A stretch of DNA of 18,298 bases, from positions 1-18,298 of the forward strand of contig JANJXE010000420.1 of assembly GCA_024709185.1 (NCBI GenBank), written 5' to 3'. This DNA is from Paludibacter sp. (lineage in GTDB: Bacteria > Bacteroidota > Bacteroidia > Bacteroidales > Paludibacteraceae). Every line of letters begins with the position of its first letter. The first letter of the stretch is position 1. The translations under genes were made by a program, and so were the position numbers. Below the pieces are notes generated by a model. It did no database searches. It was not told the DNA's origin and saw only the letters and a list, made by a program, of their open reading frames with translations. Shown one piece after another: positions 1-16,104 of this stretch.

Positions 1-1463
1 AGTGGCATCAGTTGAGTCATCGACAACAACGGAACCATTACAAAACTTCCTGCCACATAGGCCACCATTGGATTCTGACCACAGTCGGTGATGTATCTTA
101 CCAGCTTTCCTTTACCAAAATAATCGGTCAGAATGGAAAAAAACAGGTAGGTAAAGATAGCTAATCCTGAAGTAACAAAAAAATAACTCAGGGTAGCGTG
201 ATCTTTCCGTATACCGCCTTCGAAGGGTTCAACCAGTAGTCCGAGCAGTAGCCAGGCTGTACCCCAGCTGAAAAGTTCCTGGTATTTTCGTGTCAGAGCG
301 GTAGGGTTGGAACGCAACAGCAGGAAGCCTACGCCGCATAGAGCCAGGGTGAGGAGAAAATTCGGAACCAGCCAACGGATATATAATCCTACAAGATTAC
401 TTATCACCAGTGCGATGCTCAGCACAAGCAGTCCTATCATCTTTCGCTTGTCGAAATTCTGGTTTTCTGCCTTCTCAGCGATGCTGTTACTCTGTGAAAC
501 TGACGGTTGAACGTTTTTATCTGTTTTTTGCAGGATGAAATCATGTTCACTGTTTTTCATCCACCTGAAGATAACATCCCCTGCGATAGTTCCGGGAAGT
601 ACAATAAGCAGGTACTTGAGGAAGTCCATGCGGTACAGCCATCCTCCGGTAGAATAAACCAGTGAAGTGATCGATTCAGGAAGCCACTGCAATGGATTGA
701 AATTCCAGAGCCAGTGCGTCCAACTGCCTTCCACCGTGGAACTCAGTTTCAACGCAACGATTACCGCCATCACCGCTAAGCGTAACGTTACATTTCCACG
801 GGTTAGCAGCCAGATGAGAGCACCAAAAACGGCCATATTGGCCAGTACCAGTAGAATAATATCGTTGTGTGAAAGCTTAAATCCGTTAGAGAATACTTCA
901 GGCTGTGAGATTACATTGAATGCAATCAGTGCAGCTAATAGAATCATTCCGGAATAATTCAGGATACGGTTAAAGGTTTCGCTGCCAACAGGCAACCCCA
1001 CGAACCAAAACCATCGCCGGGGGCTGCAAAATCGTAATGTTTCGCTGCCAACAGGCAACCGCACGAAGGAAATAAAAAACAGCCCAAATGCCAGCAATGC
1101 CAGCAGGTAATTGGCTTCACCAGTAATCCTGTAAGGAGTAGTGTGGTAAATCGCAATTGCAAAAAATGCCAGTAGAAAAAATCGTTTCAGAAGACCCGGC
1201 AGTAGCGAAGGGATGGTTGCTCCCCGTTCCAACTTTGAGCTCATTGCCAGCGGGATAGCTGCACCCATTGCAAACAAAAAGAAGGGAAAAACCAAATCGA
1301 CCCAGGTAATTCCCGGAATGGTGGGGTCGAACTTCATGCCCGAGCGCGGACCTACCTGGGCATGGTACATCCAGGCGGGCAGGCCGGTGGCAATGGTGCC
1401 GGAAAAAACCATCCCGATAATGGCCAGTCCGCGGAGACTATCTAATGCTGATGAGCGATGCAT
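1..1463 (-). CDS. HGSNAT-like (DUF5009) membrane acyltransferase, 3' end outside window
   Basis: My own reading of the minus strand gives an open frame from ATG at 1463 to the left edge: 487 codons without a stop, so the C-terminus is missing. The N-terminus reads SALDSLRGLAIIGMVFSG, then a YHA segment with His34 and GITWVDLVFPFFLFAMG, followed by many hydrophobic helices. This matches bacterial relatives of heparan-alpha-glucosaminide N-acetyltransferase (DUF5009/NagX-like). In the human enzyme the acetyl-accepting His sits in a comparable KHASWNG...DLVFPWF context, so His34 is the candidate catalytic residue (family knowledge). Expected role: inner-membrane transfer of acetyl from cytoplasmic acetyl-CoA to an amino sugar on the periplasmic side. 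It starts 5 bp after the stop of the GxGYxYP gene, implying co-transcription. Oddity: residues 133-153 form an in-frame duplicated/inserted segment (FVRLPVGSET, repeated as FVGLPVGSET) in a loop after a membrane helix. The family call is fairly sure; the substrate is unknown. Confidence 0.85.
   Translation of the reverse strand, partial: MHRSSALDSLRGLAIIGMVFSGTIATGLPAWMYHAQVGPRSGMKFDPTIPGITWVDLVFPFFLFAMGAAIPLAMSSKLERGATIPSLLPGLLKRFFLLAFFAIAIYHTTPYRITGEANYLLALLAFGLFFISFVRLPVGSETLRFCSPRRWFWFVGLPVGSETFNRILNYSGMILLAALIAFNVISQPEVFSNGFKLSHNDIILLVLANMAVFGALIWLLTRGNVTLRLAVMAVIVALKLSSTVEGSWTHWLWNFNPLQWLPESITSLVYSTGGWLYRMDFLKYLLIVLPGTIAGDVIFRWMKNSEHDFILQKTDKNVQPSVSQSNSIAEKAENQNFDKRKMIGLLVLSIALVISNLVGLYIRWLVPNFLLTLALCGVGFLLLRSNPTALTRKYQELFSWGTAWLLLGLLVEPFEGGIRKDHATLSYFFVTSGLAIFTYLFFSILTDYFGKGKLVRYITDCGQNPMVAYVAGSFVMVPLLSMTQLMP
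976..1067 (-). repeat. 29-bp direct repeat pair at 63-bp spacing, in frame within the acyltransferase gene
   Basis: Copies at 976-1004 and 1039-1067 are identical except for one base (C versus G at 998/1061). The start-to-start distance is 63 bp, so it adds exactly 21 codons and keeps the frame open. On the transcribed (minus) strand each copy contains GTTGCC-TGTT-GGCAGC, which can form a 6-bp stem (one G-U pair) with a 4-base loop. In the coding frame the copies read FVRLPVGSET and FVGLPVGSET. The 34 bp between the copies encode LRFCSPRRWFW, a composition unlike a normal membrane-protein loop in this family. It looks like a small palindromic repeat element tolerated inside a gene, or a local duplication. 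No other copy was seen in the window. Confidence 0.9.
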
Positions 1464-1468
1464 ACTTC

Positions 1469-3508
1469 TTACCTGCCAATTTTAGTGGTTAAACTGACGT
1501 TCTTACCTGATATATGAAGAATGAAAATTCCTTTTTCCCTGAAATCGATGGTCGTAATGTTAGTTCCTGCTTCGGCTTCCCATTCTGTTGAATACATTTT
1601 CTGACCTGAAAGGTTGTAAACGCTGATGTTTACGGCCTGTTGTTCCTCCAGTTCAAGGTTAATCTGAATGCTTCCATCCCGATTCGTAAAAGTAAGCAAT
1701 TGATTGTTATTGTGTATTGCAGGTTGTTCCGAAGCTGGTAATCCCATCGATTTACGCAATAGCCAGGTGAATTTCTCCGGCGTCACAAATTCAACATCAG
1801 CACCCAGCGTCGGGTTATTTTTAATATCATCCATCAGCGTTTTCAGTCGTTGTACTGTGATATCGTGAGCGGTTGTGCTGGTGTTGCCATCGTTCCGAAA
1901 GCGCTGATAGCCTGCCAGGAGAAAATTGGGTTTGGTTTTTCCGCTGAGTTTTGAAACAATGCGATCGCGGGCGGTGGTAAGGTTCGAAACGTTCGCATAA
2001 AAAGTTTCGTCGTTCACATGATTGTAGAGCAAACCTCCGTAACCGGTGTAAGTACGCTGTGTTTGCAATGCTGGATCGTAGAGTAGGGTCAGCTGTGCGT
2101 CGGTTTGTGCGGCAAAACTGCCCAGCTTGGGAAAATCAAAATTATTAGAGATTTCTATTCCCCTGTAGGTTGATTTTCCGGCGCCGTTGTAATGTTTGTA
2201 AGCATACACCGATTGTACATCGAAGCGCTGCATCAGCTCGTTGGTTTTGGTGATGGCATTGTTCAGGTGCGATGAAGGAAATACATCGGGATAGGCATAA
2301 CCGAGTGGAGTGGCAACGGCTATAAATCCATCGTTCGCTGTGGCACTGGAATAATAATACCTGGCAAGAAACGGAAATTCCTCAAACATGTGGAGGTTCA
2401 CACCCCATCCCACAGGAACCTGTCCGCGATAGGCCGATTGCCAGGCACCTCCCTGAAAACCAACCACCCAGTTTCCGGCATCGCCTTCGGAGGCAATAAA
2501 CAGCACATAATGTTTGTTTTCCAGTTTCCATGCTGCACCGTTCACCGAAGGTCGGGTGTACACATGATTGGGATTGACAGGAAAGACCTTGTGCCAGGAA
2601 AGATTGCTCAGCAGGGTTTCGTGAAAACTTCCGCCGTAGGCCGAAATCCATTGTACGAGCGGTTCAGGACGCATCCATCCGTACACGTGAAAGATCTCGC
2701 CTGGCCTTTGGGTGCGCATATAGTTCATCACCTGCTCAATTTTTTCTGCTTTTACATCCGGCAAGGACGTAAAGCGCAGATCCTCTGTGCCGGCCAGGTT
2801 GAGCTGAAACATACGTTGCTGTATGGCCCAGTCGGTAATTTCACGAAGGTAAAATTTCGAAGGGTTGGTGCGGGGAAGCAGGTTGGCCAACGACCAGTCG
2901 ATCCAGGCAAAATACCGCTGCTCGGCGGTAAGTGAGGTGTTGTTCCACGGATGGGAGGATTGTGCCAGCTGCGCTGAAACCTCTATTGTCGGTAGTGTGC
3001 CGAAAAAATCGGGTACTTCCACCGTTGCAGGTTTGTTGATGGTAATGTAGGTATTCCCCACCGGCACAGGAATGCAGTCGGTGAGCCCGCCCAACAGGGT
3101 TGCCGCTTCACCCTGCCAGCGAAACGATTGTCCGGTGAAATTTCCGTAAGTCAGAGAAGCATCGTAGGTAATGGCTCCTTTGATGAACGAGCTGAAAGTT
3201 TGCACCAGTTGATTGATATCGGAAATAACGGTGAACTCCACCATCCCTTCTTTTTTGTAAATGTCCTCCCAGGTTTCGTCGGTTTGGGCATAGCTCCAGG
3301 TTTCGTACACATTGCGCAGGTACAATCGGGGCGTATCGCGGTTGACTATACCCGCAACTGTAAGGGCTATCAACTTATTTTCAGGCGATTGTCCGGTGCC
3401 GTTATAGACATAGGCCTGTATGCCATAGCTGCTGAATGATACTAAGTTAAAAAGCAGAAAGGTGAGTATGAATTGGTGCTTTTGGCTCAACTGGATTCGA
3501 AACTTCAT
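1469..3508 (-). CDS. GxGYxYP-family putative glycoside hydrolase with T9SS sorting domain
   Basis: A 679-residue exported protein. Residues 1-31 look like a Sec signal peptide (basic start, hydrophobic core ending near SSYGIQA) without a lipobox. Residues ~33-600 resemble GxGYxYP proteins: an N-terminal segment (ENKLIALTVAGIVNRDTPRLYL), a conserved-looking SEGDAGNW stretch at 340-347, and PLGYAYP at 401-407, which is the name motif with Pro in place of the first Gly. Family members are presumed glycosidases from their PUL context, but I know of no firmly assigned activity. Residues ~605-679 form a T9SS type A C-terminal sorting domain (VNISVYNLSGQKMY ... GIFILHISGK), so the protein should cross the outer membrane by T9SS and be anchored or released. 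It lies 62 bp after the NAGPA gene and 5 bp before the acyltransferase. Family assignment is good; the reaction is unknown. Confidence 0.85.
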   Translation of the reverse strand: MKFRIQLSQKHQFILTFLLFNLVSFSSYGIQAYVYNGTGQSPENKLIALTVAGIVNRDTPRLYLRNVYETWSYAQTDETWEDIYKKEGMVEFTVISDINQLVQTFSSFIKGAITYDASLTYGNFTGQSFRWQGEAATLLGGLTDCIPVPVGNTYITINKPATVEVPDFFGTLPTIEVSAQLAQSSHPWNNTSLTAEQRYFAWIDWSLANLLPRTNPSKFYLREITDWAIQQRMFQLNLAGTEDLRFTSLPDVKAEKIEQVMNYMRTQRPGEIFHVYGWMRPEPLVQWISAYGGSFHETLLSNLSWHKVFPVNPNHVYTRPSVNGAAWKLENKHYVLFIASEGDAGNWVVGFQGGAWQSAYRGQVPVGWGVNLHMFEEFPFLARYYYSSATANDGFIAVATPLGYAYPDVFPSSHLNNAITKTNELMQRFDVQSVYAYKHYNGAGKSTYRGIEISNNFDFPKLGSFAAQTDAQLTLLYDPALQTQRTYTGYGGLLYNHVNDETFYANVSNLTTARDRIVSKLSGKTKPNFLLAGYQRFRNDGNTSTTAHDITVQRLKTLMDDIKNNPTLGADVEFVTPEKFTWLLRKSMGLPASEQPAIHNNNQLLTFTNRDGSIQINLELEEQQAVNISVYNLSGQKMYSTEWEAEAGTNITTIDFREKGIFILHISGKNVSLTTKIGR

Positions 3509-3529
3509 GAAAATATTTTTATAATATGG

Positions 3530-3570
3530 TCGCAGGAAACTCGCATTTAATCAACACCTGCGATTATGCG
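3530..3570 (-). other. Interleaved inverted repeats (possible RNA pseudoknot) in the NAGPA-GxGYxYP gap
   Basis: Two stems can form in the 62-bp gap. TCGCAGG (3530-3536) pairs with CCTGCGA (3557-3563), and CGCAT (3542-3546) pairs with ATGCG (3566-3570). Their arms alternate, so they would either compete or form an H-type pseudoknot in the mRNA. The structure directly follows the stop codon of the upstream gene. No U-run follows, so it is not a classical terminator. Function, if any, is unknown; stems of 5 and 7 bp can also arise by chance. Confidence 0.4.
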
Positions 3571-4857
3571 TTAATTTTTCTTTTTGACAAAGGCCACTAC
3601 CGACGGCACTGCCCGCTCGGTTCCATCTGATGGTTTGTTGAGTAAAGTGCCACCAGCGATGATGGCCGATGATCCACCACCATCGAGGTTCAGGGCGCTT
3701 ACGCAGCCAATGCCTTTTAGTACCTGTGCGAGTTCTATAAGTGTTGCTCCGTCGCTGATCGACTGTCGACCGTCGCACACAAAGAGAATTATTTTGTTGT
3801 CGGCGGTGCTGCCGATAACCGTGCGGGGCGGACGGGCAGATGTGGAAAAAATATCGGTTTGCAGTAGTTCATAGTTGGTGCGGTACTTTCCCGTTGAAGT
3901 GGTGGTAAAATCAAAAACAAGTCTGCCCTCTTTTAGTAGCACCGGTGCACCTCCAATGGCTGAATAGGCATTCAGCGGACTCGATGCCGCAGGAAAGCTG
4001 GCTGTAGGAGTTGGTTGTGGAGTTTCACCCTCTACATTAGGACTTGGAATGTCGTAAGCCGAATTTCCAAATACCCATTTGATAAGCGGTTGTTGCTGTT
4101 GTGTAACTCCAAATACTCCACGGGTAACATAATAACTAATACCACCACGGGTTAGCGCTGCGATGTTATCGGCCAGCTTTTGTCCCCTGTCGATCACCAG
4201 ACTGTAGGAAACAGCTGTTGAGCCGTTGTAGCCAAAGTATCCACCGTTGGTTATGGCATACACTGTTTCCGACGACAAGGCAGTACTATGTGCCGATGGT
4301 TTACGGGCAGTGGATGACATTACCGTTTTTAATTCAATATTCCCTGTCGAAAGGTCGGCAATCACATACCAGGCTTTGAAATTTCTTCCGTTGAGTTGCG
4401 AGTTGGTTTCATACGCCCTGATTTCTGCGGGTAATGTTGAATTTACTGCATTCATCGTTTTCCATTCGAGTTGAATAGCCGGGGGATTTGCAGGCAATTG
4501 AACGTAGTTAACCTGTTGGTCGAGCGCTGCCGACATCAACCCATTGCGGGTGGCATACAACCGGTAGGTAAGTGTTCCGGCTATCGGATTGGTATCGGTA
4601 AAGCTCAGGGTGTTTTTATTTACTGTGGAAAGGATGGAAAAATCGCCCTTGTTGTGCTTTCGTTCTATCGTGTAACCATCAATGGCACCTGAAGCGGCTG
4701 TCCAGCTGAGCTCTACCTCTCCTTCTTTGATTTCAGCTTTAAAATTGCCGGGCTCGTTTACGGGAAGATTGGTCTCGTCGGCTTCTTTGCAGGAAAGAAA
4801 CGACATAGAAAGGAGTAACCACAGAAACTGTATTTTAGATCGTTTGTAGTGAATCAT
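3571..4857 (-). CDS. Lipoprotein phosphodiester glycosidase (FN3 + NAGPA domain)
   Basis: 428 residues. The N-terminus ends in FLSC, giving a lipobox with Cys23, followed by KEADE; acidic residues after the Cys fit surface-export lipoproteins of Bacteroidota. Residues ~37-118 form a fibronectin type III domain (PGNFKAEIKEGEVELSW ... LTYRLYATRNG). Residues ~155-425 form the NAGPA/DUF2233 domain, with NGGYFGY (204-210), GGAPVL (302-307), PRTVIGS (344-350), CDGRQ (361-365), LDGGGSS (391-397) and ER..PS (414-419). The human homologue is the uncovering enzyme that cleaves GlcNAc-1-phosphodiester from mannose-6-phosphate. Bacterial members are thought to cut GlcNAc-phosphodiester or related alpha-linkages. 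All main motifs appear intact. It sits 90 bp after the GHL10 gene. The domain call is firm; the exact substrate is inferred from neighbours, including a GH92 mannosidase. Confidence 0.92.
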   Translation of the reverse strand: MIHYKRSKIQFLWLLLSMSFLSCKEADETNLPVNEPGNFKAEIKEGEVELSWTAASGAIDGYTIERKHNKGDFSILSTVNKNTLSFTDTNPIAGTLTYRLYATRNGLMSAALDQQVNYVQLPANPPAIQLEWKTMNAVNSTLPAEIRAYETNSQLNGRNFKAWYVIADLSTGNIELKTVMSSTARKPSAHSTALSSETVYAITNGGYFGYNGSTAVSYSLVIDRGQKLADNIAALTRGGISYYVTRGVFGVTQQQQPLIKWVFGNSAYDIPSPNVEGETPQPTPTASFPAASSPLNAYSAIGGAPVLLKEGRLVFDFTTTSTGKYRTNYELLQTDIFSTSARPPRTVIGSTADNKIILFVCDGRQSISDGATLIELAQVLKGIGCVSALNLDGGGSSAIIAGGTLLNKPSDGTERAVPSVVAFVKKKN

Positions 4858-4947
4858 GAGTTAAATCTATCCGGTTCGAAGAACTCAATTCAAATCAGGT
4901 TGATGATTCTGAAAAATTGATTTCCAGGTATTCCGGTATATTGAACA

Positions 4948-6618
4948 TTAGTTTAGCCCCGGGAAAATTGCTTTTCCGGGATACAGGGCTTTGTACACCG
5001 CTTGTTTCGGTACCACTCCCTCGTAAAACCAGGTCGATTCGCTGTAAACACCTTTCGACCGGTTGTACTGCATCATCTTAGCCAGGAAGGCGTCGGTAGG
5101 AAGGTAACCTCCATTGCGAACGAGCATTCCAGGTACATATTTTTTTCGCAGGGCTTCGGTATTGAATACAGCGGATAAATCACCATCTATCAGTGAAGTA
5201 TAGGATGTTAAACCCTGCGATTCGTTTCGGTATTGCTGGGGCGATACCCAGTCGGCTTTGCCATTGGCCACCCATTGTGGCCAGTCCTGCAGGTAGTTAT
5301 CGCGACTCCAGCCCCTTGCACTTGGGGCCCACGTAACCAGGCAGGTAGAGCGGGCGGCTTTCACGGCGTTGTAAAGCGATGTGGCATAGGATGTCATTTT
5401 TCCCACTTTCCAGTTCATGAACTGAGTTTCGGTAGGCGAGGAGGGAACATCCCTGCCTGTTTCGGTTTTATAAAGTTGTTTGGTGAAATCGTCGTATCCG
5501 GCATGGGAAGGAAGCGCCGGTAGTCGGTCATCACCCTGAATGCCATCCAGGCCGGGATATTTCGTGACACATTCCACGATCATGTCGGTCATGAACTGCT
5601 GCACTTCGGGATGAAATCCATTCATCCAGTAAAAGTTGTTTTTCACCGTTTGGGTGCCATCCTGCTGGCGACTTATCCATTGCGGTTTTTTGTCGGTAAG
5701 TGGTTGCGGCTGACCGGCATAATGCGATGCAAAACCATATTCGAACCAGGCAATGACCTTGATTCCTTTAGCATGTGCTTTTTCGATTAATTTACCCAGC
5801 ACATCGCCCCATCCGGCTCCGTCGATAACGGTTTGTGCCGGTGTAATGCCCAACACATTGGCAAGGGTTTGGCTGGGGAAAAGTGTCTGGCTTTTATTAT
5901 AGGTAGCTACGCAGATGGTGTTGAAGTTCAACGCTGCCAGTTGATCGACCATAGCGGTGAGATTGGCTTCTGAAAAAAGGACTTCGCTGGCCACATTAGT
6001 TACCCAAACTGCTCTCACGCCGGTTTCCTGAGCGGCATGCTCCACAGTAACGGTGTAATTTGTTTTGGTTCCGTTGGCGGCTGTGATGGTATGCACCACC
6101 GGTGAAGTGTAATTATTGGGAACTCCGAATGCAGGAGTTGCGGTAGCTCCTTCAGAAAGAGTGGCCTGAATGGTGAGGTTCGATAAATCGGTTCCAAAAG
6201 GTACTGTAAAACGAACCTGATTGGCTGTTATGATACCGGTCCCATCCAGGAAAAGCGCTGGGATAGAAGCACGGAAAATTCGTTTCTCGTCGGAAAGGTT
6301 GTTAATGGTAATGGTGTACACCCGTTGATCCCCGTTTTCGGCTGTAACGGTGTAATCGACCGGAGCCGTGAAATTCTGTACAACGCCTGATGCCGGTGTG
6401 ATTCGTGCCCCGGGAGAGACTGCAAAATTCAGGGTCAGGGCATTCAGCGAAAGAGTTTTGTTGATGGCAATATGAACTTCATCGTTGATGGAGTCTATTT
6501 CGATGGCGGCATTGGGGTCTTCTTTCACAGCAACTTGTAAAATCCGGTTTTCAGATGATCCTTTGTCGCAGGAAGAGAAGATTGTCAGAAGTATAAGAGA
6601 AAAAAGAAGTTGTCGCAT
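4948..6618 (-). CDS. Lipoprotein GHL10 (DUF187) glycosidase-like enzyme with two N-terminal beta modules
   Basis: 556 residues. The signal peptide ends in FSSC (Cys17) followed by DKGSS, a lipoprotein. Two related modules occupy ~25-107 and ~112-193; each ends with a similar strand pair (TAENGDQRVYTITI, TAANGTKTNYTVTV) typical of DUF5018/cadherin-like beta-sandwiches. Residues ~200-545 form a TIM-barrel glycosidase-like domain of the GHL10/DUF187 family (YngK-like): GVRAVWVTNV (200-209), KGIKVIAWFEYGF (284-296), GLDGIQGDDR (356-365), a WVSPQQYR strand (457-464) and SESTWFYEG (526-534). Acidic residues D358, D363, D364 and E293 are candidate active-site residues; I cannot rank them. Likely role: hydrolysis of a polysaccharide backbone or side chain at the cell surface. 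It is 80 bp downstream of the preceding lipoprotein gene, with a hairpin in that gap. The fold call is firm; the specificity is unknown. Confidence 0.88.
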   Translation of the reverse strand: MRQLLFSLILLTIFSSCDKGSSENRILQVAVKEDPNAAIEIDSINDEVHIAINKTLSLNALTLNFAVSPGARITPASGVVQNFTAPVDYTVTAENGDQRVYTITINNLSDEKRIFRASIPALFLDGTGIITANQVRFTVPFGTDLSNLTIQATLSEGATATPAFGVPNNYTSPVVHTITAANGTKTNYTVTVEHAAQETGVRAVWVTNVASEVLFSEANLTAMVDQLAALNFNTICVATYNKSQTLFPSQTLANVLGITPAQTVIDGAGWGDVLGKLIEKAHAKGIKVIAWFEYGFASHYAGQPQPLTDKKPQWISRQQDGTQTVKNNFYWMNGFHPEVQQFMTDMIVECVTKYPGLDGIQGDDRLPALPSHAGYDDFTKQLYKTETGRDVPSSPTETQFMNWKVGKMTSYATSLYNAVKAARSTCLVTWAPSARGWSRDNYLQDWPQWVANGKADWVSPQQYRNESQGLTSYTSLIDGDLSAVFNTEALRKKYVPGMLVRNGGYLPTDAFLAKMMQYNRSKGVYSESTWFYEGVVPKQAVYKALYPGKAIFPGLN

Positions 6619-6647
6619 ACGGGTGATGAGTAGTTATTAGTGTAAAT

Positions 6648-6681
6648 ACCGGTCCGAAAACAGGTGTGCTTCCGGACCGGT
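6648..6681 (-). other. 9-bp inverted repeat between two lipoprotein genes
   Basis: ACCGGTCCG (6648-6656) and CGGACCGGT (6673-6681) are perfect inverted copies with a 16-base loop. They lie in the 80-bp gap between the DUF4623-type and GHL10-type lipoprotein genes. The stem is strongly GC-rich in an AT-rich gap. In the direction of transcription it is followed by ATTTACACTAAT with no U-run. It may act as a partial terminator, an mRNA 3'-end stabiliser or a processing site within the operon. The structure is visible; the role is inferred. Confidence 0.6.
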
Positions 6682-6698
6682 GAAAAATAAATCAGTGT

Positions 6699-8447
6699 TT
6701 ATTCTACTTTCAGCAGACTGATACCCTGATTGCTGGCTACTGCAACAAGATAAGTCACCCCGCCTGAAGTGGTATGTACATAAATTTTTCCAGTGCCATT
6801 TCCATTGGTGATATTGGCAACGTCGGCCAGTGCCGGTCCGGAAAGGTTGATGTCGGTAGCTTTGTTGGAAATCTTCTCCAGACTTTCGGCAAGGGTTGGA
6901 TAATCCAGCGGACGAATACGCAAAACCCAGCGTTTGAAACTATCTGTTGCAAACAGGTAAGCCAGGTATTTCTTATCGTTGAAGCTGAAGAAGGCATCGC
7001 CAACCTGACTGGATGGGAATACTGCTCCATCGGTAGCATAGGTAACGGTTTGTGTAGCAGGATTAAATACTGTGGCCTGCTTGCCGGTTCCTGAGAATAA
7101 ATATTCAGTTGCACTATATCGATAAATAGCTCCCGCAGTTGATCCTGTTGCAGGAACTAAAATGCCGGGCACGGTTACGATAGTTGGAGTGGTATTTACA
7201 ACGCCGCCTGTGATGGTGAATTCGTAGTAGCGATTGTTGGCATTGTAATCGAAGAAACGAATTTTGCCATTGGTTAAATCGCCTTCAAACGTAAATTTAT
7301 CACCCAAACGAGGATTTGGGGCTGCACCTACATTGTACGAGAATAAAAGGCTCGGGGCAGAGTTTACATCGTTCCAAACGAAAACTTTCAAAACATTGTT
7401 GGCTGCGTTGGCAAGGTTACAGGCTACGATTTTTCCGCCAATTACATTTACATCGGTTGTTCCGTGTGCTCCCCGATTGGTTTCTGCAACTGTGTACATT
7501 CCGGTCCGGTCGAGCAGACGTGCCGATTTGTCGGAAATCTTAATGGCTATTACTCCGTATGCAGGATAAACCGGTACTGCATCGCCTTCGTGCTGAATGT
7601 GTTTGTTACCACGGGCAATGTAAATGTAGTTGTCGTCCATGGCTATACCACGGTCCCATGCATCAGTACCGGGAGATGCAGGCACAACAGTTGCAGGATT
7701 GGTTCCGGCAAGAGGAGCAACTCCATAGAAATCAGCCGTTCCGAAGTTGGCAAAGGTTTGCCATACCTTGGTGATTTTGGTGTATCCGGAAGTTACCACT
7801 TTAACGGTAACGATGGTGCTGGCTCCGTTGTATTCCAGTTTAAATTTACGTCCGTTGAGTTTGTCCGAGAAGTTATACCGGTTGTTTACAGCCGTGGTAT
7901 CGAGAGCCACATACTCATCATTATCGGTATTCTTGATTTTTACAGTAACACCGGTGGCATTGGTTTCGTAGGCAATTTTTACTGCTTCCAGGTTTTCAGA
8001 AGCCAATAACTGAGCCACAAAGAAATTGCTTTCCGGTCGTACATCCACCCCGTTGAGGGTAAGTTTGGCAAACTTAGGTTGTAAAGCTGCATTACTTACT
8101 CCGACACTATAGCTTTTAATTTCGCCATCGGCAAAAGTTACATCATAGGTGTGGCGCTGATTATTGGAAAAATTACGCACAGCATTCAGCGGAGCTACCA
8201 TAGCGCCTGCAGGAAGATCATTAAACAAGATGGTTAGTTTCGACAACGAATCCTTTGCTTCAAAAGGAATGCTGATGTCGATGGTTTTAGCAGTATTGTC
8301 GAGCAACACCTGAATGTCGGCGATATTCTTCACGGTAATCATATTTTCCGCGAGAATATTATCGGGATTACCTTCTTTATCGCAAGCGCTGAAGGTTACT
8401 AACATCCCGGCCAGAACCAGAAAAGGAATTAAAAATTTTGTTTTCAT
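6699..8447 (-). CDS. Surface lipoprotein, DUF5018-like module plus propeller-like region (probably DUF4623)
   Basis: 582 residues from the ATG at 8447. An open frame continues upstream to 8573, but I chose the internal Met because MKTKFLIPFLVLAGMLVTFSAC is a full lipoprotein signal (Cys22). The longer start would also bury the signal and overlap the previous gene. CDKEG after the cleavage site fits a surface-export signature. Residues ~35-120 hold a beta module ending in YDVTFADGEIKSYSVGV, like those of the next gene. From ~220 onward the repetitive beta-strand pattern (AWDRGIAMDDNYIYIARG, GVIAIKISDKSARLLDR, GGKIVACNLAN, NGKIRFFDYNANNRYYEF, YLFSGTGKQATVF, KKYLAYLFATDSF) suggests a beta-propeller, as in DUF4623 proteins of SusCD loci. 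No catalytic residues were recognised; glycan binding is the likely role. It starts 19 bp after the previous gene. Confidence 0.82.
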   Translation of the reverse strand: MKTKFLIPFLVLAGMLVTFSACDKEGNPDNILAENMITVKNIADIQVLLDNTAKTIDISIPFEAKDSLSKLTILFNDLPAGAMVAPLNAVRNFSNNQRHTYDVTFADGEIKSYSVGVSNAALQPKFAKLTLNGVDVRPESNFFVAQLLASENLEAVKIAYETNATGVTVKIKNTDNDEYVALDTTAVNNRYNFSDKLNGRKFKLEYNGASTIVTVKVVTSGYTKITKVWQTFANFGTADFYGVAPLAGTNPATVVPASPGTDAWDRGIAMDDNYIYIARGNKHIQHEGDAVPVYPAYGVIAIKISDKSARLLDRTGMYTVAETNRGAHGTTDVNVIGGKIVACNLANAANNVLKVFVWNDVNSAPSLLFSYNVGAAPNPRLGDKFTFEGDLTNGKIRFFDYNANNRYYEFTITGGVVNTTPTIVTVPGILVPATGSTAGAIYRYSATEYLFSGTGKQATVFNPATQTVTYATDGAVFPSSQVGDAFFSFNDKKYLAYLFATDSFKRWVLRIRPLDYPTLAESLEKISNKATDINLSGPALADVANITNGNGTGKIYVHTTSGGVTYLVAVASNQGISLLKVE

Positions 8448-8466
8448 ACGGTAAAAATTTATTGTA

Positions 8467-8895
8467 TTAATTAAATGTGAGTACATATTTACGGTCAGCG
8501 CCATTGGCTGCGATGACGTGGAAATAATAGGTTTTTTTCGAGAGGGTACGAATGCCGCCAATGCCGTTGCCAATTATCCTTCCCGAACCGTCTTTTTCAA
8601 CCAACGTAGCTGTAAGAGGAATAATCGCCATAAAACGGGCACGTTGTTTTTGTTCGTCGGTAAGTTCGTTTATCCCCGAAAAAGTGATGATGCCGTTTTC
8701 GGAGATAGAACCTGTAAATTTTACTGTAAGGTCTTCGGGACGACTGCCAATGGCATTCATCTTTTCTTCCAGCACCACTGTACAGCTGATAGAACTCATG
8801 GTGTTATCGCTGCTTAAATCCGGAATATCCAGGTCCTGACAGCCTGCCAGCAGCGTTACTATCATCAGGACAGGTATAATTTGTAAGAGTTTCAT
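8467..8895 (-). CDS. Small surface lipoprotein, DUF5018-related, in the SusE/F position
   Basis: 142 residues. The signal peptide ends in LLAGC (Cys19) and is followed by QDLDIPD, an acidic stretch fitting outer-surface lipoproteins. The mature part is one beta-rich domain. Its final strands (YYFHVIAANGADRKYVLTFN) match the closing strands of the modules in the two following lipoproteins, so it is probably a single DUF5018-related domain. Its position directly after susD is where SusE/SusF-type surface glycan-binding proteins usually sit. A binding role is therefore inferred; no enzymatic motif is present. It lies 71 bp after susD and 19 bp before the next gene. It appears complete. Confidence 0.78.
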   Translation of the reverse strand: MKLLQIIPVLMIVTLLAGCQDLDIPDLSSDNTMSSISCTVVLEEKMNAIGSRPEDLTVKFTGSISENGIITFSGINELTDEQKQRARFMAIIPLTATLVEKDGSGRIIGNGIGGIRTLSKKTYYFHVIAANGADRKYVLTFN

Positions 8896-8966
8896 ATCGT
8901 AGTTTTTTTAGACCCGCTTAATACACGGAGTGAAGTTCAATCAGCGTAGCAAAGCGGATGTGTTGG

Positions 8967-10667
8967 TTACCAGTTTTTATTTTGTTTTGCTTCTGTGTTA
9001 TTCCGGATTTCACTTTCCGGAATAGGGAACGCTTCCCAGTTGCTGTGATAGCGCCGGATGCCGGTATCGCAACTTACGAGTTCAGCACTAAAGCTTCCAT
9101 CGGCTTTCTTTGTCCATTTTACGCCGTTATACCGTTTTCCGTTCAACACCTGAAGGGCTTTACCTGTTCGGCGCAAGTCCCAAAAGCGGTGTCCTTCAAA
9201 GGCAAGTTCCACAGCCCGTTCTTTCAGGATGTAGTCTACCGCGGCTGCAGTTGTACTATAATCAGGCGCTGCTATGGCATCGTTACCAAAGCGTTTTTTA
9301 CGCAATTCGTGAACGATAGTGCGTGATTCAGCCATTCCCGAAGGTGTTTGTGCCAGGCATTCAGCCAGTATCAGCATTGTTTCGGCATAGCGAAATTCCG
9401 GCCAGTCCTGCTCACTTCCCTTCGATACAAAATCAGTATTGTTCTCATCGATAAATTTCCGCATGTAGTAACCGGTTACGGTATTTCCGGGTGCATTCAC
9501 CTTACTGTAGGGGAAGTTCTTCATATCTATCTCGTAATTGCCTGTTGTTTCGTCGAAATAGCATTTCAACTTACGCCCTTTCCAGGATGAATTATTGAAC
9601 AAAACCGTTGCTTTCAAACGAGGATCGCGTTGCAGGGAATTCTCGTCGGTTACAAACCGCAGGGCATTGTGCGCAGGATTCGAGGGGTCGAACCTGCTTC
9701 CATCGGCCATGTCGTACATATCCACAAATTCCTGTGTAGGCCCGGCCATCGCCAGTAATCCCTGCCCAAGAATATCTCCGGCAGGTGCATAACGCAAATC
9801 GAGGTTATGGGTTAGTTCCGGATATTTCCAGTAAACGCCGAAGATCACTTCCGAATTGTTGATATTCTTAAAGATAGAAGCATACTCGTTTATATAACTG
9901 AACTTACCCTGAATTGCGCGGGCTGCTGCTATGGCTTTGTCGTACCGTTTGGCATAGAGCATGGCGCGTGCTTTCAGCGCCTGTGCTGCGTAATGACTAA
10001 CCTGACCAGTCTGAGCATCCTTTGGTAGACGGTCACCTGAAATGCAGTATTCCAAATCCTGCTCGATGAAATCCCAGGAAGCGTTGATGCTACTGCGGGC
10101 TTTTGTTTTTTGAGAGGCGTCCATCTGCTCGAGGTCGCTGCGGATGATAAGTCCTAAATCATCCGATTCGCTGGCATGTGAACGCATAATCATAAAGGCT
10201 GCATAAGCGCGGAAGAAACGGGCTTCGGCTTCGAACGACTGTGCCTTACTGCCAAACTTTGCTTCGTATTCCTTTAAACCGGCAAGAAAACGGTTCACAT
10301 CAAAAATGATGTCGTATCCATAGGTCCAGGTGTCGAAGGGATTGGCAGCTGTGGAAACATATCCATCAACTGTAGTAATAATATTGGCATCACCTACACC
10401 GGCCACAATACCTCCGTATTTCAGGATGTCGGTAAGTCCGTCGCTCATAGTGGAATTGTTGCCGAGTGCTTTTGAGCCAAACTGACTGAAATTACGCAAC
10501 ATCGGATAAAAGGAGTTCAGGTACAACCGTACGCTGTTTTCATTTTTAAAAGCCACGGTATTGATATACGTGTCGCGTGGTTTTATGTCGATCACATCCA
10601 GGCAGGAACTCAAGAGCAGTGCCATCACCACGATGAGAGAATTTTTGATTTTTCGTTTCGTATTCAT
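8967..10667 (-). CDS. RagB/SusD family nutrient-binding outer-membrane lipoprotein
   Basis: 566 residues. The lipobox LLSSC (Cys22) is followed by LDVIDIKPRDTYINT, the typical start of mature SusD proteins. The body has the tetratricopeptide-like helical pattern of the family (RFFRAYAAFMIM around 150-161, ALKARAMLYAKRYDKAIAAA near 230-250). The C-terminal SusD region has RYAETMLILAECLAQ, ILKERAVELAFEGHRFWDLRRTGKA and the ending YHSNWEAFPIPESEIRNNTEAKQNKNW. SusD proteins form the lid of the SusC transporter and bind oligosaccharide at the cell surface. It starts 13 bp after the stop of the susC gene, the usual SusC-SusD spacing. Length is within the normal range. Ligand specificity cannot be read from the sequence, but the neighbouring enzymes suggest a mannose- or amino-sugar-containing glycan. 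Confidence 0.96.
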   Translation of the reverse strand: MNTKRKIKNSLIVVMALLLSSCLDVIDIKPRDTYINTVAFKNENSVRLYLNSFYPMLRNFSQFGSKALGNNSTMSDGLTDILKYGGIVAGVGDANIITTVDGYVSTAANPFDTWTYGYDIIFDVNRFLAGLKEYEAKFGSKAQSFEAEARFFRAYAAFMIMRSHASESDDLGLIIRSDLEQMDASQKTKARSSINASWDFIEQDLEYCISGDRLPKDAQTGQVSHYAAQALKARAMLYAKRYDKAIAAARAIQGKFSYINEYASIFKNINNSEVIFGVYWKYPELTHNLDLRYAPAGDILGQGLLAMAGPTQEFVDMYDMADGSRFDPSNPAHNALRFVTDENSLQRDPRLKATVLFNNSSWKGRKLKCYFDETTGNYEIDMKNFPYSKVNAPGNTVTGYYMRKFIDENNTDFVSKGSEQDWPEFRYAETMLILAECLAQTPSGMAESRTIVHELRKKRFGNDAIAAPDYSTTAAAVDYILKERAVELAFEGHRFWDLRRTGKALQVLNGKRYNGVKWTKKADGSFSAELVSCDTGIRRYHSNWEAFPIPESEIRNNTEAKQNKNW

Positions 10668-10680
10668 ATGTGTTCAGAGT

Positions 10681-13600
10681 TTACAGTTTGATATTCAGAC
10701 CCAATGAGAAAACACGTTGCTGTGGATAGTATCCGTTGTTTACACTTGGCGCTTCCGGGTCAATGTACTTCAGTTTCGAGAAAGTCAACAGATTAGTTCC
10801 TGAGAGATACAAAAGTACACTCTCCAGCTTCATCTTCTTTACAAGTTGTCCCGGGAGGTTATACCCTACCTGCATGTTCTTCAGACGAAGGTAGGAAGCG
10901 TCGCGTTTCCAGAAGTCGCTGATTTGTGCATTGTTCGAACTGGTTTGTGTCGAAAGACGTGGATATTCGGCATTGCGGTTATCGGGTGTCCAGCTACCTT
11001 CGGCCAGGTAACGGGGCGGATTCGACCCCCATTTGAAAATCTGGGTAAAGAAGGTTCCGTCCGAATAGCCCAGTGCCTGATAGGTACCCGACAACATTAC
11101 ATCACTGATGGCTGCACCCTGAAAAAAGAGATTCATTTCAAAGTCCTTGTATTGCATGTCCAGATTCATCCCGTAATTGATTTTGGGAAGCGGACTGTTG
11201 GCAATGAGTACGCGGTCGGAATTGTCGATTTTTCCGTCTCCGTTGAAATCGTTGAATTTAATATCGCCCAAACGTACTTCATCCGACATTTTGGGTGAAT
11301 ACCGCAAATCGTCTTCGTCCTGATACAATCCAGCCGACTGATATCCATACACACTTCCGGGCGAATTGCCGATTACCAGCAGGTTTTTAGGCGTATTGGC
11401 GCTTTGAGTCCACTTTACATAACGGTTGTTGGCATAGGTAAAGGTGCCGCTTACAAAGTAATTGAAGTCTTTGTTAATGGTGCGTTTGTGTCCCAGTATC
11501 ACATCAAATCCGCGGGTGTCAATCGTACCGAAGTTCACATAGGTCGGGAAGTTATTTCCGATAGAAGGTGGATAGATGGAAGGTGCCGGGCCCAGAATAT
11601 CTTCTCTCACTTTGTAATAAGCATCGAACTCCAGCGAAAGAAGTCCATTCCAGAATACCGACTCTATCCCGGCATTGTAGGTGGTCACTGTTTCCCAGCG
11701 CAGGTCTTTGTTGGGGATGTTTACCGGTGAAATACTTTGATAGCCATTGTCGCCAAAAACGACGGTTGAAGTGGAGGTGATGGCGTAATTTTCAAGATAA
11801 CTTGAGGCGGCAACCACATCGTTACCCAATACACCCCACGATAAGCGGAGTTTCAGGTTTTCGATAAAGTTCAATCCGGCATTCTTTTTTACAAAATCTT
11901 CTTCCGAAATGCGCCAACCCATCGATACGCCCGGGAAAATCCCCAGTTTGTTGTTCCCCAGGAAGCTCGACGACCAGTCGGTACGGTTGGTAAATTGTAC
12001 CATATAACGGTCGAGGTAGGAGTAGTTGAAACGCGATACAAGTCCGGCACGTCCCGATTGTCCGCTCGATCCATAAACGGGAATCTCGGGGAAGTTAGCA
12101 CTTTTCGAGAGCTCGGGCAAGTCGGTCAGCGGCATATTTTCGACATAGCCTGAAAAGGAATTGGAGTAGGCCCCGCTTTGTTCCCAGGCTAAGTCAACTC
12201 CCACATTGTGGTCGTCGAACTTGTTCAGGTAGTTGGCAATGGCCTGAAAGGTATATTTGGAGCTGAACGCGGCTGCATCCATGAGTTCGTTGATACCTTC
12301 AATGCGATGCGGGGAATAACCGTAGGTAAGCTGCTGCACCGAACCTTCGCCCAGACCTGTGCTGTATTGCGGAGTGGCCTGCTCAACCGGCAGGATAAGT
12401 GCTTTTGCAAAAGAGCTGGTAAAATCGTAGCCGAAATTTGCTGTGAGTTTCAGACCTTTTAATAATTTATTGGCATCGTAATTCAATCCCATTGTAGTCT
12501 GTACCACGCGCGATTTGTGGTCGCGGAAACCCGATTCGTCGCGGGCAATCAGCGGATTGTTGTAACCAATCCAGGTGCCGTCCTTCATTTTCGGATTCAC
12601 CACAGGAGCTGCTGCTATAGCGTAATAGATAATATTTTTATAGCCCATGGTGGCTCCTCCGTTGGCTGTCGATGCACTGGGGTCGGCTGCTCCCGGTGAA
12701 ACGCCGGGTTGTTGTCTCTGCTCTAATCGTCCTGCAATGTCTACCTTAAAGGTAAGATCATCAGTGAATTTAATATCCAGGTTGGAACGCAGGTTATAGC
12801 GGTCGAAACTTACCTTGTCGATAATCCCGTCCTGCCGCAGATAACTGGAACCCACGTAAAATTTAATTTTGTCGGTTCCTCCCGTAAGATTGATTTTGTG
12901 GTTGGTTCCCGGTGCAAATGGTTTAAAAATCAGCTTCATCCAGTCGGTGTTTCCCCAGATGCCCTGCGGGTCGTTGCCGTTAGTGATATAACCGATACGA
13001 CGTTCGTCGAACTCAATAGGTTGTCCGTCGAGTGTTTTGGCCAGGTTGTGATAATGGGCGTACTCAGGTCCTGTAAGAAACTCAGGAAAGTTAGTATTGG
13101 TAGATGCGGTAAAAATTCCATCGTAGGAAACGGCTATTTTCTCATTCGATTTTCCGCGTTTGGTGGTTACCAGAATCACTCCGTTACCAGCCCGTACCCC
13201 GTAAATGGCGGTCGATGCCGCATCTTTCAACACTGTGAAGCTTTCGATCTCCGAAGGGTCCAGATTTTGAAAATCCCGTTCTACACCATCTACAAGAACT
13301 AAGGCATTGGATCCTCCGCGGATGCTGATGGTGGCGCCGTTTTCACCGGGCACCCCGCTTTGCTGACGGGTTACCAATCCGGCAATTCGTCCTCCCAGCA
13401 TGGTGGAGATATTGTCGGAAGGAATTTTGGTCAGTTTGTCGCCACTGATGCTGGCCACTGCTCCGGTTACCGACGAGCGTTGCTGTACACCATACCCTAC
13501 TACAATTACCTCGTCCAGTTTTTTGGTGTCTTCCAGTAAGGTAATGGTGAAGTTGGATTTGCCAGCTGTCGGTACTTCCTGTTTTACATATCCTACATAC

Positions 13601-13821
13601 GAAACTTCAAGCGTGGCGGGTGAATTTCGCAGCTGAAGGGTAAACTGACCGTCAAAATTTGTGATGGTGCCGTTGTTGGTGCCTTTTTCCAAAACGGTTG
13701 CTCCGATAATGGTTTCGCCTTTCTGGTCGGTAACCACTCCGCGAACTGTCTGCCCCTGTACCAGTGCAGTCAGGGTAAGCATGAACATACTTAGTGAAAA
13801 AAATGTGATTGCTCTCTTCAT
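10681..13821 (-). CDS. SusC/RagA family TonB-linked outer-membrane transporter
   Basis: 1046 residues. A Sec signal peptide (1-23, ending ALVQGQ) precedes a carboxypeptidase-D regulatory-like domain (~25-97: VRGVVTDQKGETIIGATV ... LEVSYVGY). Then come the TonB box/plug (LDEVIVVGYG at 102-111, ISIRGGSNALVLVDGV at 165-180, VLKDAASTAIYGVRAGNGVILVTTKRG at 197-223) and the beta-barrel to the terminal FSLGLNIKL. No extra N-terminal STN domain is present, so this transporter is not expected to signal directly to an anti-sigma factor. It imports oligosaccharides together with SusD, powered by TonB. It follows the GH92 gene by 22 bp and precedes susD by 13 bp. Length and motifs are complete. Confidence 0.97.
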   Translation of the reverse strand: MKRAITFFSLSMFMLTLTALVQGQTVRGVVTDQKGETIIGATVLEKGTNNGTITNFDGQFTLQLRNSPATLEVSYVGYVKQEVPTAGKSNFTITLLEDTKKLDEVIVVGYGVQQRSSVTGAVASISGDKLTKIPSDNISTMLGGRIAGLVTRQQSGVPGENGATISIRGGSNALVLVDGVERDFQNLDPSEIESFTVLKDAASTAIYGVRAGNGVILVTTKRGKSNEKIAVSYDGIFTASTNTNFPEFLTGPEYAHYHNLAKTLDGQPIEFDERRIGYITNGNDPQGIWGNTDWMKLIFKPFAPGTNHKINLTGGTDKIKFYVGSSYLRQDGIIDKVSFDRYNLRSNLDIKFTDDLTFKVDIAGRLEQRQQPGVSPGAADPSASTANGGATMGYKNIIYYAIAAAPVVNPKMKDGTWIGYNNPLIARDESGFRDHKSRVVQTTMGLNYDANKLLKGLKLTANFGYDFTSSFAKALILPVEQATPQYSTGLGEGSVQQLTYGYSPHRIEGINELMDAAAFSSKYTFQAIANYLNKFDDHNVGVDLAWEQSGAYSNSFSGYVENMPLTDLPELSKSANFPEIPVYGSSGQSGRAGLVSRFNYSYLDRYMVQFTNRTDWSSSFLGNNKLGIFPGVSMGWRISEEDFVKKNAGLNFIENLKLRLSWGVLGNDVVAASSYLENYAITSTSTVVFGDNGYQSISPVNIPNKDLRWETVTTYNAGIESVFWNGLLSLEFDAYYKVREDILGPAPSIYPPSIGNNFPTYVNFGTIDTRGFDVILGHKRTINKDFNYFVSGTFTYANNRYVKWTQSANTPKNLLVIGNSPGSVYGYQSAGLYQDEDDLRYSPKMSDEVRLGDIKFNDFNGDGKIDNSDRVLIANSPLPKINYGMNLDMQYKDFEMNLFFQGAAISDVMLSGTYQALGYSDGTFFTQIFKWGSNPPRYLAEGSWTPDNRNAEYPRLSTQTSSNNAQISDFWKRDASYLRLKNMQVGYNLPGQLVKKMKLESVLLYLSGTNLLTFSKLKYIDPEAPSVNNGYYPQQRVFSLGLNIKL

Positions 13822-13843
13822 ATTGTTAATGTGCTTGTGTGCT

Positions 13844-16039
13844 TTATTTGTTTGTCATGTTGAACCTGAGCTTGCCTCCCAGCATTAGTTCTGCATGGGT
13901 TATATGTGGTTCCGTAATTTCTTTTCCATTGAAAAACACCTTTTCAGGAACAGGATGCGTAGCTGACTTAGGTGCTGAAATGCGAATTTTCTTTCCGTTT
14001 TCCAGCCGGATGGTTGCCTTTTGCACAATCGGACTGCCCAGTACATATTCGCCATTCACCGGATTCATCGGGTACAGTCCCAGTGCACTCATCACGTACC
14101 AGGCCGACATCTGTCCGCAATCGTCGTTGCCACACAGTCCCGCAGGAATGGGTCGATACATGTCCTTCATCACCTGACGTACGCGTTGGGCCATTTTATC
14201 ACGACGACCGGCATAGCTGTACATATAAATGGTGCTGTGACTGGGCTCATTGCCATGTGCATACTGCCCGATTAATCCTGAAATATCAATCGATGCTCCT
14301 TCGTTGAGCTGTGAACTCACTGTAAATAAACTGTCGAGTTTGGTTTCGAAGGTTTTTTTTCCTCCAAAAAGATTGATGAGTCCTTTCACATCGTGTGGCA
14401 CCATAAACGTATATTGCCATCCGTTTCCTTCTACATAATCGGCTTGTTCGTGAAGCGAAAAGGAGGGATCGTATTCGCTACGGAACTGACCATTAGCCAG
14501 TCGGCCACGCAGGAAACCACGTTTCGCATCAAAATAATGCTCGTAGTGTTTTGCCCGTTTCATAAAATGCTCATAATCGGCAGTTTTGCCCAGGTGCTTT
14601 GCCAGTAATGCGATGGCATAATCATTTACTGCATATTCCAGGGCTTTCGATACCGACCAGTTTTCCATATCGGCCGGAATCCATCCCTGCTGACGAACGT
14701 AATTCAGACCGCGGTCGTTGCGTGCTTCAAAACTGCGTACCAGACGATAGGCCCTTTCTGTATCGATTCCGTTAATATTTTTAAGAACAGCATCCACAAT
14801 TACAGGAATGGAATGTACGCCTACCATGGTGCCGGTTTCATTGCCCACCAAATGCCAGATGGGAAGCGATCCCTGTTTTTCGGTGATGTCGAGAAGTGAA
14901 TTGACCCAATCCGCAGTACGTACGGGATTCAGAATGCTTTGCAGTGGATGGAAGGTGCGATAGGTATCCCAGAGTGAAAAGATGGTATGCGGAACAAAGC
15001 CTTCGCTGCGGTACACTTTTCCATCGGCTCCCCGGTACTCACCATTCACATCCGAAAATTCGGAAGGCGAAATCATCGTACGAAAAAGAGAAGTATAGAA
15101 CATGGTCCGCACACCGGGATCGGAAGTTGAAATATCAATTTTTGATAATTCACGGTTCCAGAGTTGCTGAGCTTCTTTTACGGTTTGATTGAAATTCCAT
15201 CCGGGAAGTTCGTTGGAAAGATTTTCAGCGGCATTGGCACAGCTTACATACGAAATGGCTACTTTCACTTCCACTACTTCATTGGCTTTTGTTCCGAAAC
15301 TTAACATTGCTTTGTGAACATTCAGGCTGTCTTTCGAGCGAGGACGAAAAACGGGTTCAATCACCTTAGTAAAAATCATATCTTTTGAAAATACAGCCCG
15401 GAAATAGATTCTCTGATTTTTAGCCCAGCCCCGCGAATAACGGTATCCTTCGATAGTGCGGGCATCCAGTTGTTTCAAATGAGTTTCGGTAGGCTCATCC
15501 CACTCGATACCTTCACCCAAATCGACAATGATATTGGCCTGCTGGCTTTCAGGGAAAGTATAGCGATGATACCCAACACGGTTGGTGGCAGTAAGTTCTG
15601 CCTTAATGTTGTATTTCTTCAGCTGAACAGAATAGTATCCTGGCTTCACGGTTTCTTTATCGTGCGAAAACAGCGAAACATACCCTTTGGATAAATCATC
15701 GAACGATCCCTTAAAAGTAGTAGGTTTGCCGGTTGTGGGCATAAAAAGAATATCGCCCAAATCGCCGATACCCGTGCCATTGAGATGCGTATGCGAAAAG
15801 CCGATGATGGTACTGTCGGAATAATGATAACCCGAACACCAGTGCCAACCCTTGCTCATGTTGGTTGGGCCCAATTGCACCATCCCAAAGGGAACACTGG
15901 CACCTATAAACACGTTACCATGGTAATCGGATCCGATCATAGGATCGACGTACTTCACGGGATTGTTGATAGCGCTGGTATTCAGCACGATGCATCCGGT
16001 GAGGAGAATTAAAACGAGAAATCGGAAAAACAGCTTCAT
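13844..16039 (-). CDS. GH92 family alpha-mannosidase
   Basis: 731 residues, normal GH92 length. The N-terminal beta-sandwich (~27-280) begins with VKYVDPMIGSDYHGNVFIGASVPFG and includes GWHWCSGYHYSDSTIIGFSHTHLNG. The C-terminal (alpha/alpha)6 catalytic domain spans ~290-715, with SLWDTYRTFHPL (355-366), YVEGNGWQYTF (535-545), HGNEPSH (595-601) and CGNDDCGQMSAWYV (636-649). From the family as I recall it, E537 in EGN is the probable general acid and D639/D640 lie at the base site. Variants acting on mannosyl-phosphate replace the acid by Gln, so this protein looks like an ordinary calcium-dependent exo-alpha-mannosidase. The N-terminus carries both a possible lipobox (LLTGC, Cys16) and a possible later cleavage site (NTSA), so periplasmic soluble versus lipid-anchored is undecided. 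It sits 22 bp upstream of susC and 65 bp after the oxidoreductase gene. Confidence 0.96.
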   Translation of the reverse strand: MKLFFRFLVLILLTGCIVLNTSAINNPVKYVDPMIGSDYHGNVFIGASVPFGMVQLGPTNMSKGWHWCSGYHYSDSTIIGFSHTHLNGTGIGDLGDILFMPTTGKPTTFKGSFDDLSKGYVSLFSHDKETVKPGYYSVQLKKYNIKAELTATNRVGYHRYTFPESQQANIIVDLGEGIEWDEPTETHLKQLDARTIEGYRYSRGWAKNQRIYFRAVFSKDMIFTKVIEPVFRPRSKDSLNVHKAMLSFGTKANEVVEVKVAISYVSCANAAENLSNELPGWNFNQTVKEAQQLWNRELSKIDISTSDPGVRTMFYTSLFRTMISPSEFSDVNGEYRGADGKVYRSEGFVPHTIFSLWDTYRTFHPLQSILNPVRTADWVNSLLDITEKQGSLPIWHLVGNETGTMVGVHSIPVIVDAVLKNINGIDTERAYRLVRSFEARNDRGLNYVRQQGWIPADMENWSVSKALEYAVNDYAIALLAKHLGKTADYEHFMKRAKHYEHYFDAKRGFLRGRLANGQFRSEYDPSFSLHEQADYVEGNGWQYTFMVPHDVKGLINLFGGKKTFETKLDSLFTVSSQLNEGASIDISGLIGQYAHGNEPSHSTIYMYSYAGRRDKMAQRVRQVMKDMYRPIPAGLCGNDDCGQMSAWYVMSALGLYPMNPVNGEYVLGSPIVQKATIRLENGKKIRISAPKSATHPVPEKVFFNGKEITEPHITHAELMLGGKLRFNMTNK

Positions 16040-16104
16040 GTGTTGTTAAGTTGATAGTCGGCAAGTGGTATCCCTGCTCCTGACCAAAAATTAGTTTTCG
16101 TTTT

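Follow-up and report, generated by a model that had tools for sequence, protein, structure and literature searches.

Within a gene for a DUF5009 / HGSNAT-like membrane acyltransferase of Paludibacter sp., a 29-bp stretch occurs twice, and the 34 nucleotides held between the two copies match a DUF1015 gene of the same genome. The gene lies at the start of the 18,298 nucleotides of contig sequence analysed here (the window). The added 63 bp are a real, unusual and one-off insertion of a scrap of host gene with duplication of the target, and, as far as the metagenome bin shows, they are not a palindromic mobile element. As to its origin, we consider a one-off templated insertion through template switching to be the most likely route, and we hold this view with moderate confidence.

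The duplicated stretch and its hairpin

The gene product (P0001) matches PF16401 at 199.8 bits (cut-off 25). Its frame opens with an ATG at position 1463 on the minus strand and is stop-free to the start of the window, the 3′ end lying past the contig edge; the features discussed below are collected in Table 1. A preliminary description of this DNA had reported a 29-bp sequence present twice at 63-bp spacing with one mismatch, and the repeat search bears this out: the copies are identical at 28 of 29 positions, start 63 bp apart and are in frame with each other. For such pairs within 200 bp, a simple binomial estimate over the whole window gives a chance expectation of ~1e-9. The upstream copy retains FVR, as do the homologues P0003 and P0004, and the single mismatch in the downstream copy replaces FVR with FVG. 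Because 29 + 34 = 63 bp, the reading frame is kept open and 21 codons are gained, in agreement with the earlier statement that 21 codons had been added to a gene that is still open (a stop-free frame of 487 residues).

Each copy had also been said to fold as GTTGCC-TGTT-GGCAGC. Such a hairpin is predicted in both copies, with an energy of -10.2 kcal/mol in each, and it is only modestly better than shuffled sequence: for 976-1004 the z score was -1.74 (13 of 200 shuffles equally good), for 1039-1067 it was -2.02 (8 of 200), and for the whole 122 nt it was -1.36 (14 of 200). The hairpin in the upstream copy may be a point at which replication stalls.

Table 1. Positions of the features of the insertion and of its donor (window coordinates unless another locus is named)
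Feature	Position	Strand	Basis
DUF5009 / HGSNAT-like membrane acyltransferase gene (P0001, 487 residues)	2..1463	-	open frame and PF16401
Upstream 29-bp copy (gene order), codes FVRLPVGSET	1039..1067	-	repeat search and protein alignment
34-nt scrap between the copies, read as LRFCSPRRWFW	1005..1038	-	31/34 identity with own DUF1015 gene
Downstream 29-bp copy, then native FNRILNYSG	976..1004	-	repeat search and protein alignment
Hairpin GTTGCC-TGTT-GGCAGC, upstream copy (second at 981-996)	1044..1059	-	sequence and folding prediction
Donor segment in DUF1015 gene (gene 7058-8305)	G000:C500, L142 7764-7797	-	own-genome search

Native and added residues

Of 8000 candidates scored in a search with P0001, 4993 were retained as homologues, and P0001 was aligned with the 120 listed members of this set. 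Among the resulting 121 rows, of which P0071 does not span the insert region, the 21-residue insert was found in P0001 and P0002 only; residues 133-153, singled out in the preliminary description as a segment that homologues might lack, are thus absent everywhere else that the alignment covers. The closest homologues without the insert among the rows aligned, P0003 and P0004, read SFVRIPVGSETFNRILNYSG and SFVRLPVGSETLNRILNYSG, respectively, at this site. In both, (I/L)PVGSET occurs once and the 21 residues are missing, which gives the ancestral site at the protein level and indicates that one LPVGSET copy in P0001 is native. Judged from these alignments, the 21 codons appear to have been inserted. 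On P0003 and P0004 alone, loss in these two rather than gain in P0001 would be possible, but 117 of the 121 rows count against it: they carry neither the 21-residue insert nor the 13-residue insert of P0005 and P0006 (within the 117, P0071 has no coverage of the region and P0074 is aligned differently just downstream). The earlier view of the LPVGSET repeat around LRFCSPRRWFW as foreign therefore stands in part. The presence of these residues in two of 121 rows supports an insertion, but one of the two LPVGSET copies is native, and the foreign part is the 34-nt stretch that separates them.

No differences separate P0001 from P0002 over residues 3-246, a range that takes in the insert, but the two diverge over residues 247-487; over residues 341-487, P0002 agrees with P0004 at 142 of 147 positions. 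The insert is thus present on two gene backbones, through either recombination (a mosaic gene) or chimeric assembly. A tree pairs P0001 with P0003 and P0002 with P0004, and it gives no date for the insertion because P0001 and P0002 share their first part and then diverge. This pattern bears on whether the insert itself could be an assembly artefact, a chimeric joint in a metagenome bin. The source is a bin of 558 contigs, and P0002, P0001-like in its first part and P0004-like in its last, could be a chimera. However, the same 21 residues stand in P0002, which is a separate entry (source lgn), from the same or another sample, and an in-frame addition of 63 bp with altered copies (28/29 and 31/34) is unlike a read chimera, so we regard an artefact as very improbable.

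An AlphaFold model of P0001 (57 sequences, mean pLDDT 84.0) places the insert in a predicted loop, where the preliminary description had also put it. Here, residues 139-158 are modelled with very low confidence between helices 118-133 and 161-186, and they form the sole stretch of at least three residues with a pLDDT below 50, a value that is partly due to only two of the rows given carrying the insert. According to the model, the insert lies outside the fold, which seems to be why it is tolerated; we ascribe no function to it, and the change was probably retained as nearly neutral.

A different, 13-residue insertion is found in the same loop (window residues 133-166) of P0005 (SILRLPLSRETAN) and P0006 (TFLQLPMTRETIN), where it is an approximate repeat of the native (R/Q)LPxxxxxxN motif. 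That these proteins carry a differing insertion in the same loop indicates that the site tolerates additions, and from the sequences compared this loop of the DUF5009 protein seems to gain duplications repeatedly.

The donor of the 34-nt scrap

When the genome was searched with a 24-nt piece of the scrap, the piece itself and one further place with two mismatches were recovered, and the control gave 0 matches. The second place lies in a DUF1015 gene, so identified by PF06245 in its homologue list, beside a gene that we take from its sequence to be metK. Scrap and donor agree at 31 of 34 positions overall and at 31 of 33 from TACG on, and the chance expectation of a 31/33 match in 3.4 Mb is ~4e-10. 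Translated in the donor frame, the segment gives EYDFVAPGDGFG; in the window, a different frame of the same bases gives LRFCSPRRWFW, which indicates that copying ran from the DUF1015 gene to the window.

The DUF1015 gene is present in 44 of 48 genus genomes. Thirty of its loci, the own one included, were compared with the scrap, and at the 29 loci from other members of the genus the best match ranged from 19 to 29 of 33 per locus; among the loci compared, the own copy is therefore the nearest donor. No third copy of the scrap was seen in the own genome, where a 17-nt piece gave two exact places and nine matches with three mismatches, against three for the control. At the GCA of the scrap, the corresponding bases in relatives of the donor are GTA, GTG and others; as both GTA and GTG are found there, an ancestral donor with GTA is no more than one possible source of this difference. 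A donor coding Ala at this position was sought and rejected, being present in 0 of 73 readable homologues (V 51, I 18, T 4; the other 47 of 120 had no motif match). Long internal tandem duplications, either real or assembly errors, occur in two of the DUF1015 homologues, P0123 (536 aa) and P0125 (501 aa), and differ in extent between them.

The identity of the stretch between the copies also bears on simpler readings of the repeat. The preliminary description had held that a lack of further copies in the genome would favour a simple local duplication. As far as the bin reaches (558 contigs, 82.65% complete) there are none, but a plain tandem duplication is rejected as well, since the 34 nt separating the copies match DUF1015 instead of the target. 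The same description had compared the palindromic 29-mer with the elements of Rickettsia and suggested a mobile mini-element of Bacteroidota that inserts in frame into genes. The palindromic form of the 29-mer and its position in frame fit such an element. However, a 17-nt core taken from the 29-mer occurs exactly only twice in the bin, both times in this gene and once as native sequence, and its two matches with three mismatches compare with three for a reversed-pattern control. The scrap, moreover, matches a gene found in 44/48 genus genomes, and a plasmid search with the repeat core gave no match. In viral contigs the 17-mer was found in six stretches and an 18-mer of the scrap in three, the flanks of these three looking unrelated; across nine viral loci, the matches among the best 40 BLAST rows were at most 18 nt long. 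We consider a mobile mini-element extremely improbable, and the reading of the 29-mer as an inserted element is not upheld in the bin. Rickettsia palindromic elements are described as ~150 bp long and inserted in many genes (PMC10969869). The addition seen here resembles them in extending a protein gene in frame but differs in being 63 bp, of which 29 duplicate native sequence, and in being a native palindrome with a host-gene scrap at one place; in the bin (82.65% complete), dispersal like that of these elements or of MITEs was not found.

Probable template switching and its rivals

We infer that template switching at the hairpin was the cause. The ancestral gene would have held a single 29-bp stretch coding FVRLPVGSET, with its hairpin. 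As this DNA was replicated or repaired, the copying machinery would leave its template just past the hairpin, copy about 33-34 nt of the DUF1015 gene from elsewhere in the cell, and then return to the original template 29 bp upstream, so that the hairpin stretch would be copied a second time. The product would be the observed order of 29-bp copy, 34-nt scrap and 29-bp copy, with 63 bp extra and the frame open. The break sits ~5 nt beyond the hairpin arm, and the source of the inserted bases lies elsewhere in the same genome, in the own DUF1015 gene, as expected of a template switch. For E. coli, passages of one report (PMC3161906) describe complex junctions and microhomology template switching and discuss fork stalling at inverted repeats. 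The present case is like the long-distance switches (MMBIR) treated there in combining a duplication with complex junctions, which those passages tie to secondary structure; it differs in scale, tens of bases rather than kilobases, in having nearly no microhomology, and in lying within a gene and in frame.

Three observations count against template switching. First, junction microhomology is poor: the return junction has ~1 nt and the exit junction 0-2 nt, depending on the ancestral bases, whereas 1-4 or 3-30 bp are given for the E. coli junctions in the passages cited (PMC3161906). A shared word, GCGAA, lies near the exit junction but is out of register. Second, the hairpin is only modestly more stable than its shuffles. 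Third, the 29/34 split coincides with the repeat and spacer sizes of type I-B-like arrays in the genus, a coincidence that template switching does not predict.

Little or no microhomology would suit the capture of a fragment at a staggered break, in which a 34-nt DUF1015 fragment, possibly a short single-stranded one, was joined between filled-in overhangs of 29 nt by end joining or illegitimate recombination; the duplication of the target around the scrap is also as this reading would have it. In short-patch double illegitimate recombination (SPDIR) of Acinetobacter baylyi, short DNA from elsewhere in the genome is likewise written into a gene. SPDIR, however, relies on microhomologies, at which it replaces bases, whereas here a duplication flanks an insert. 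Moreover, Ku (PF02735) was not found in the own bin (82.65% complete), which weakens end joining; a control search found Ku in 1 of 14 genomes. Taken together, we regard fragment capture as improbable.

The size coincidence raises an alternative in which a type I-B Cas1-Cas2 put a 34-bp self prespacer from DUF1015 at a palindromic site rather than at its array and duplicated 29 bp as if they were a CRISPR repeat, leaving a one-spacer fossil of a new CRISPR within a protein gene. The window has the form repeat-spacer-repeat, with near-identical repeats around a unique stretch of spacer size, and such integration requires no microhomology at the junctions. Six genus arrays of one type I-B-like kind, none of them in the own genome, were compared, the cas genes being typed beside one of them, L203, alone. 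Four of the six (L203, L204, L206, L207) have 29-nt repeats with spacers of 34-38 nt, and 67 of the 289 spacers in these four are exactly 34 nt, none being shorter; the 29 + 34 of the window thus falls within the array sizes of the genus, and the modal period of L203 is 63. Other genus arrays have other periods, such as 77. The Cas1 beside L203 is of type I-B (TIGR03641, 474 bits, cut-off 304.1), with Cas4, Cas3 and a protein with a below-cut-off Cas7 match as further neighbours, and Cas1 is found above cut-off in 25 of 48 genus genomes. Spacer integration outside arrays is documented in PMC11788318 and PMC9456107, which cite Nivala 2018 for non-canonical integration by Cas1-Cas2, and PMC6895254 reports integration outside arrays in vitro on plasmids. 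The likeness lies in a repeat-length target duplicated around captured DNA of spacer length, and the differences are that the present bin has no cas1, that the repeat has no significant likeness to those of arrays, and that there is a single unit.

Each of these differences weighs against Cas1-Cas2. No Cas1 match was obtained in the own bin; at 82.65% completeness, a missing contig or later loss of cas1 is possible. By one pattern search, no such array was found in the own genome (one isolated match), and the sole Cas4-family match covers just part of a 1136-aa frame that contains one stop. The likeness of the 29-mer to genus repeats is not significant: of 60,576 background 29-mers drawn from the window and C500, 5.3% score as high in one orientation and 34% in the other, and better-scoring places exist within the same DUF5009 gene. 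Nor did a second 29/34 unit appear in the stretches sampled. Over 2,045,570 bases of mixed loci (repeats of at least 22 bp), the 24 isolated pairs listed of 1433 pairs include that of the window and no other 29/34 pair. With repeats of at least 18 bp, none besides the window's was seen in 173,512 bases of the own genome, and none in 447,530 bases of genome G034 plus 55,003 of array loci. A scan of 798,000 bases of G066 and G001 gave nine isolated pairs, none of them 29/34; clustered pairs, arrays included, are left out of the isolated-pair counts (120 in this last scan). Protospacers of one array were sought in a phage collection and none was found, and 422 spacers gave nothing above the score limits against the loci collected. 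Weighing both sides, we see Cas1-Cas2 integration as a tentative possibility on the unlikely side. The broader proposal, that the insert is stray CRISPR adaptation at a hairpin site that yielded a 21-residue in-frame peptide, with Cas1-Cas2 as a natural source of protein insertions, is to our mind doubtful.

Near a Cas1 gene of another genome, two identical copies of a 22-bp direct repeat stand isolated, separated by 38 nt (period 60; G014, L156 2727-2808), at a locus that also has a CRISPR-like array of period 77.

Genomic context and implications

Next to the DUF5009 gene, positions 1469-17967 of the window hold SusC- and SusD-like genes, GH92, GHL10, a phosphodiester (NAGPA-type) glycosidase, a GxGYxYP protein and an FAD oxidoreductase, and form a probable polysaccharide-utilisation locus; a 624-aa protein encoded at 6699-8573 had no Pfam match. 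The four best loci for the DUF5009 protein in named genomes belong to MAGs of Paludibacter, uncultured Bacteroidales, Paludibacter and Paludibacteraceae.

The insertion carries a warning, in that a two-copy palindrome within a gene need not mean a mobile element. If the Cas1-Cas2 reading were true, new protein segments would have a source in CRISPR adaptation, and duplications of 29-31 bp around self scraps of 34-38 nt would be predicted in type I-B genomes. The insertion is a naturally occurring example with donor and product both legible to the base and the target legible at the protein level, and it allows one to examine how a bacterium comes to write part of one gene into another.
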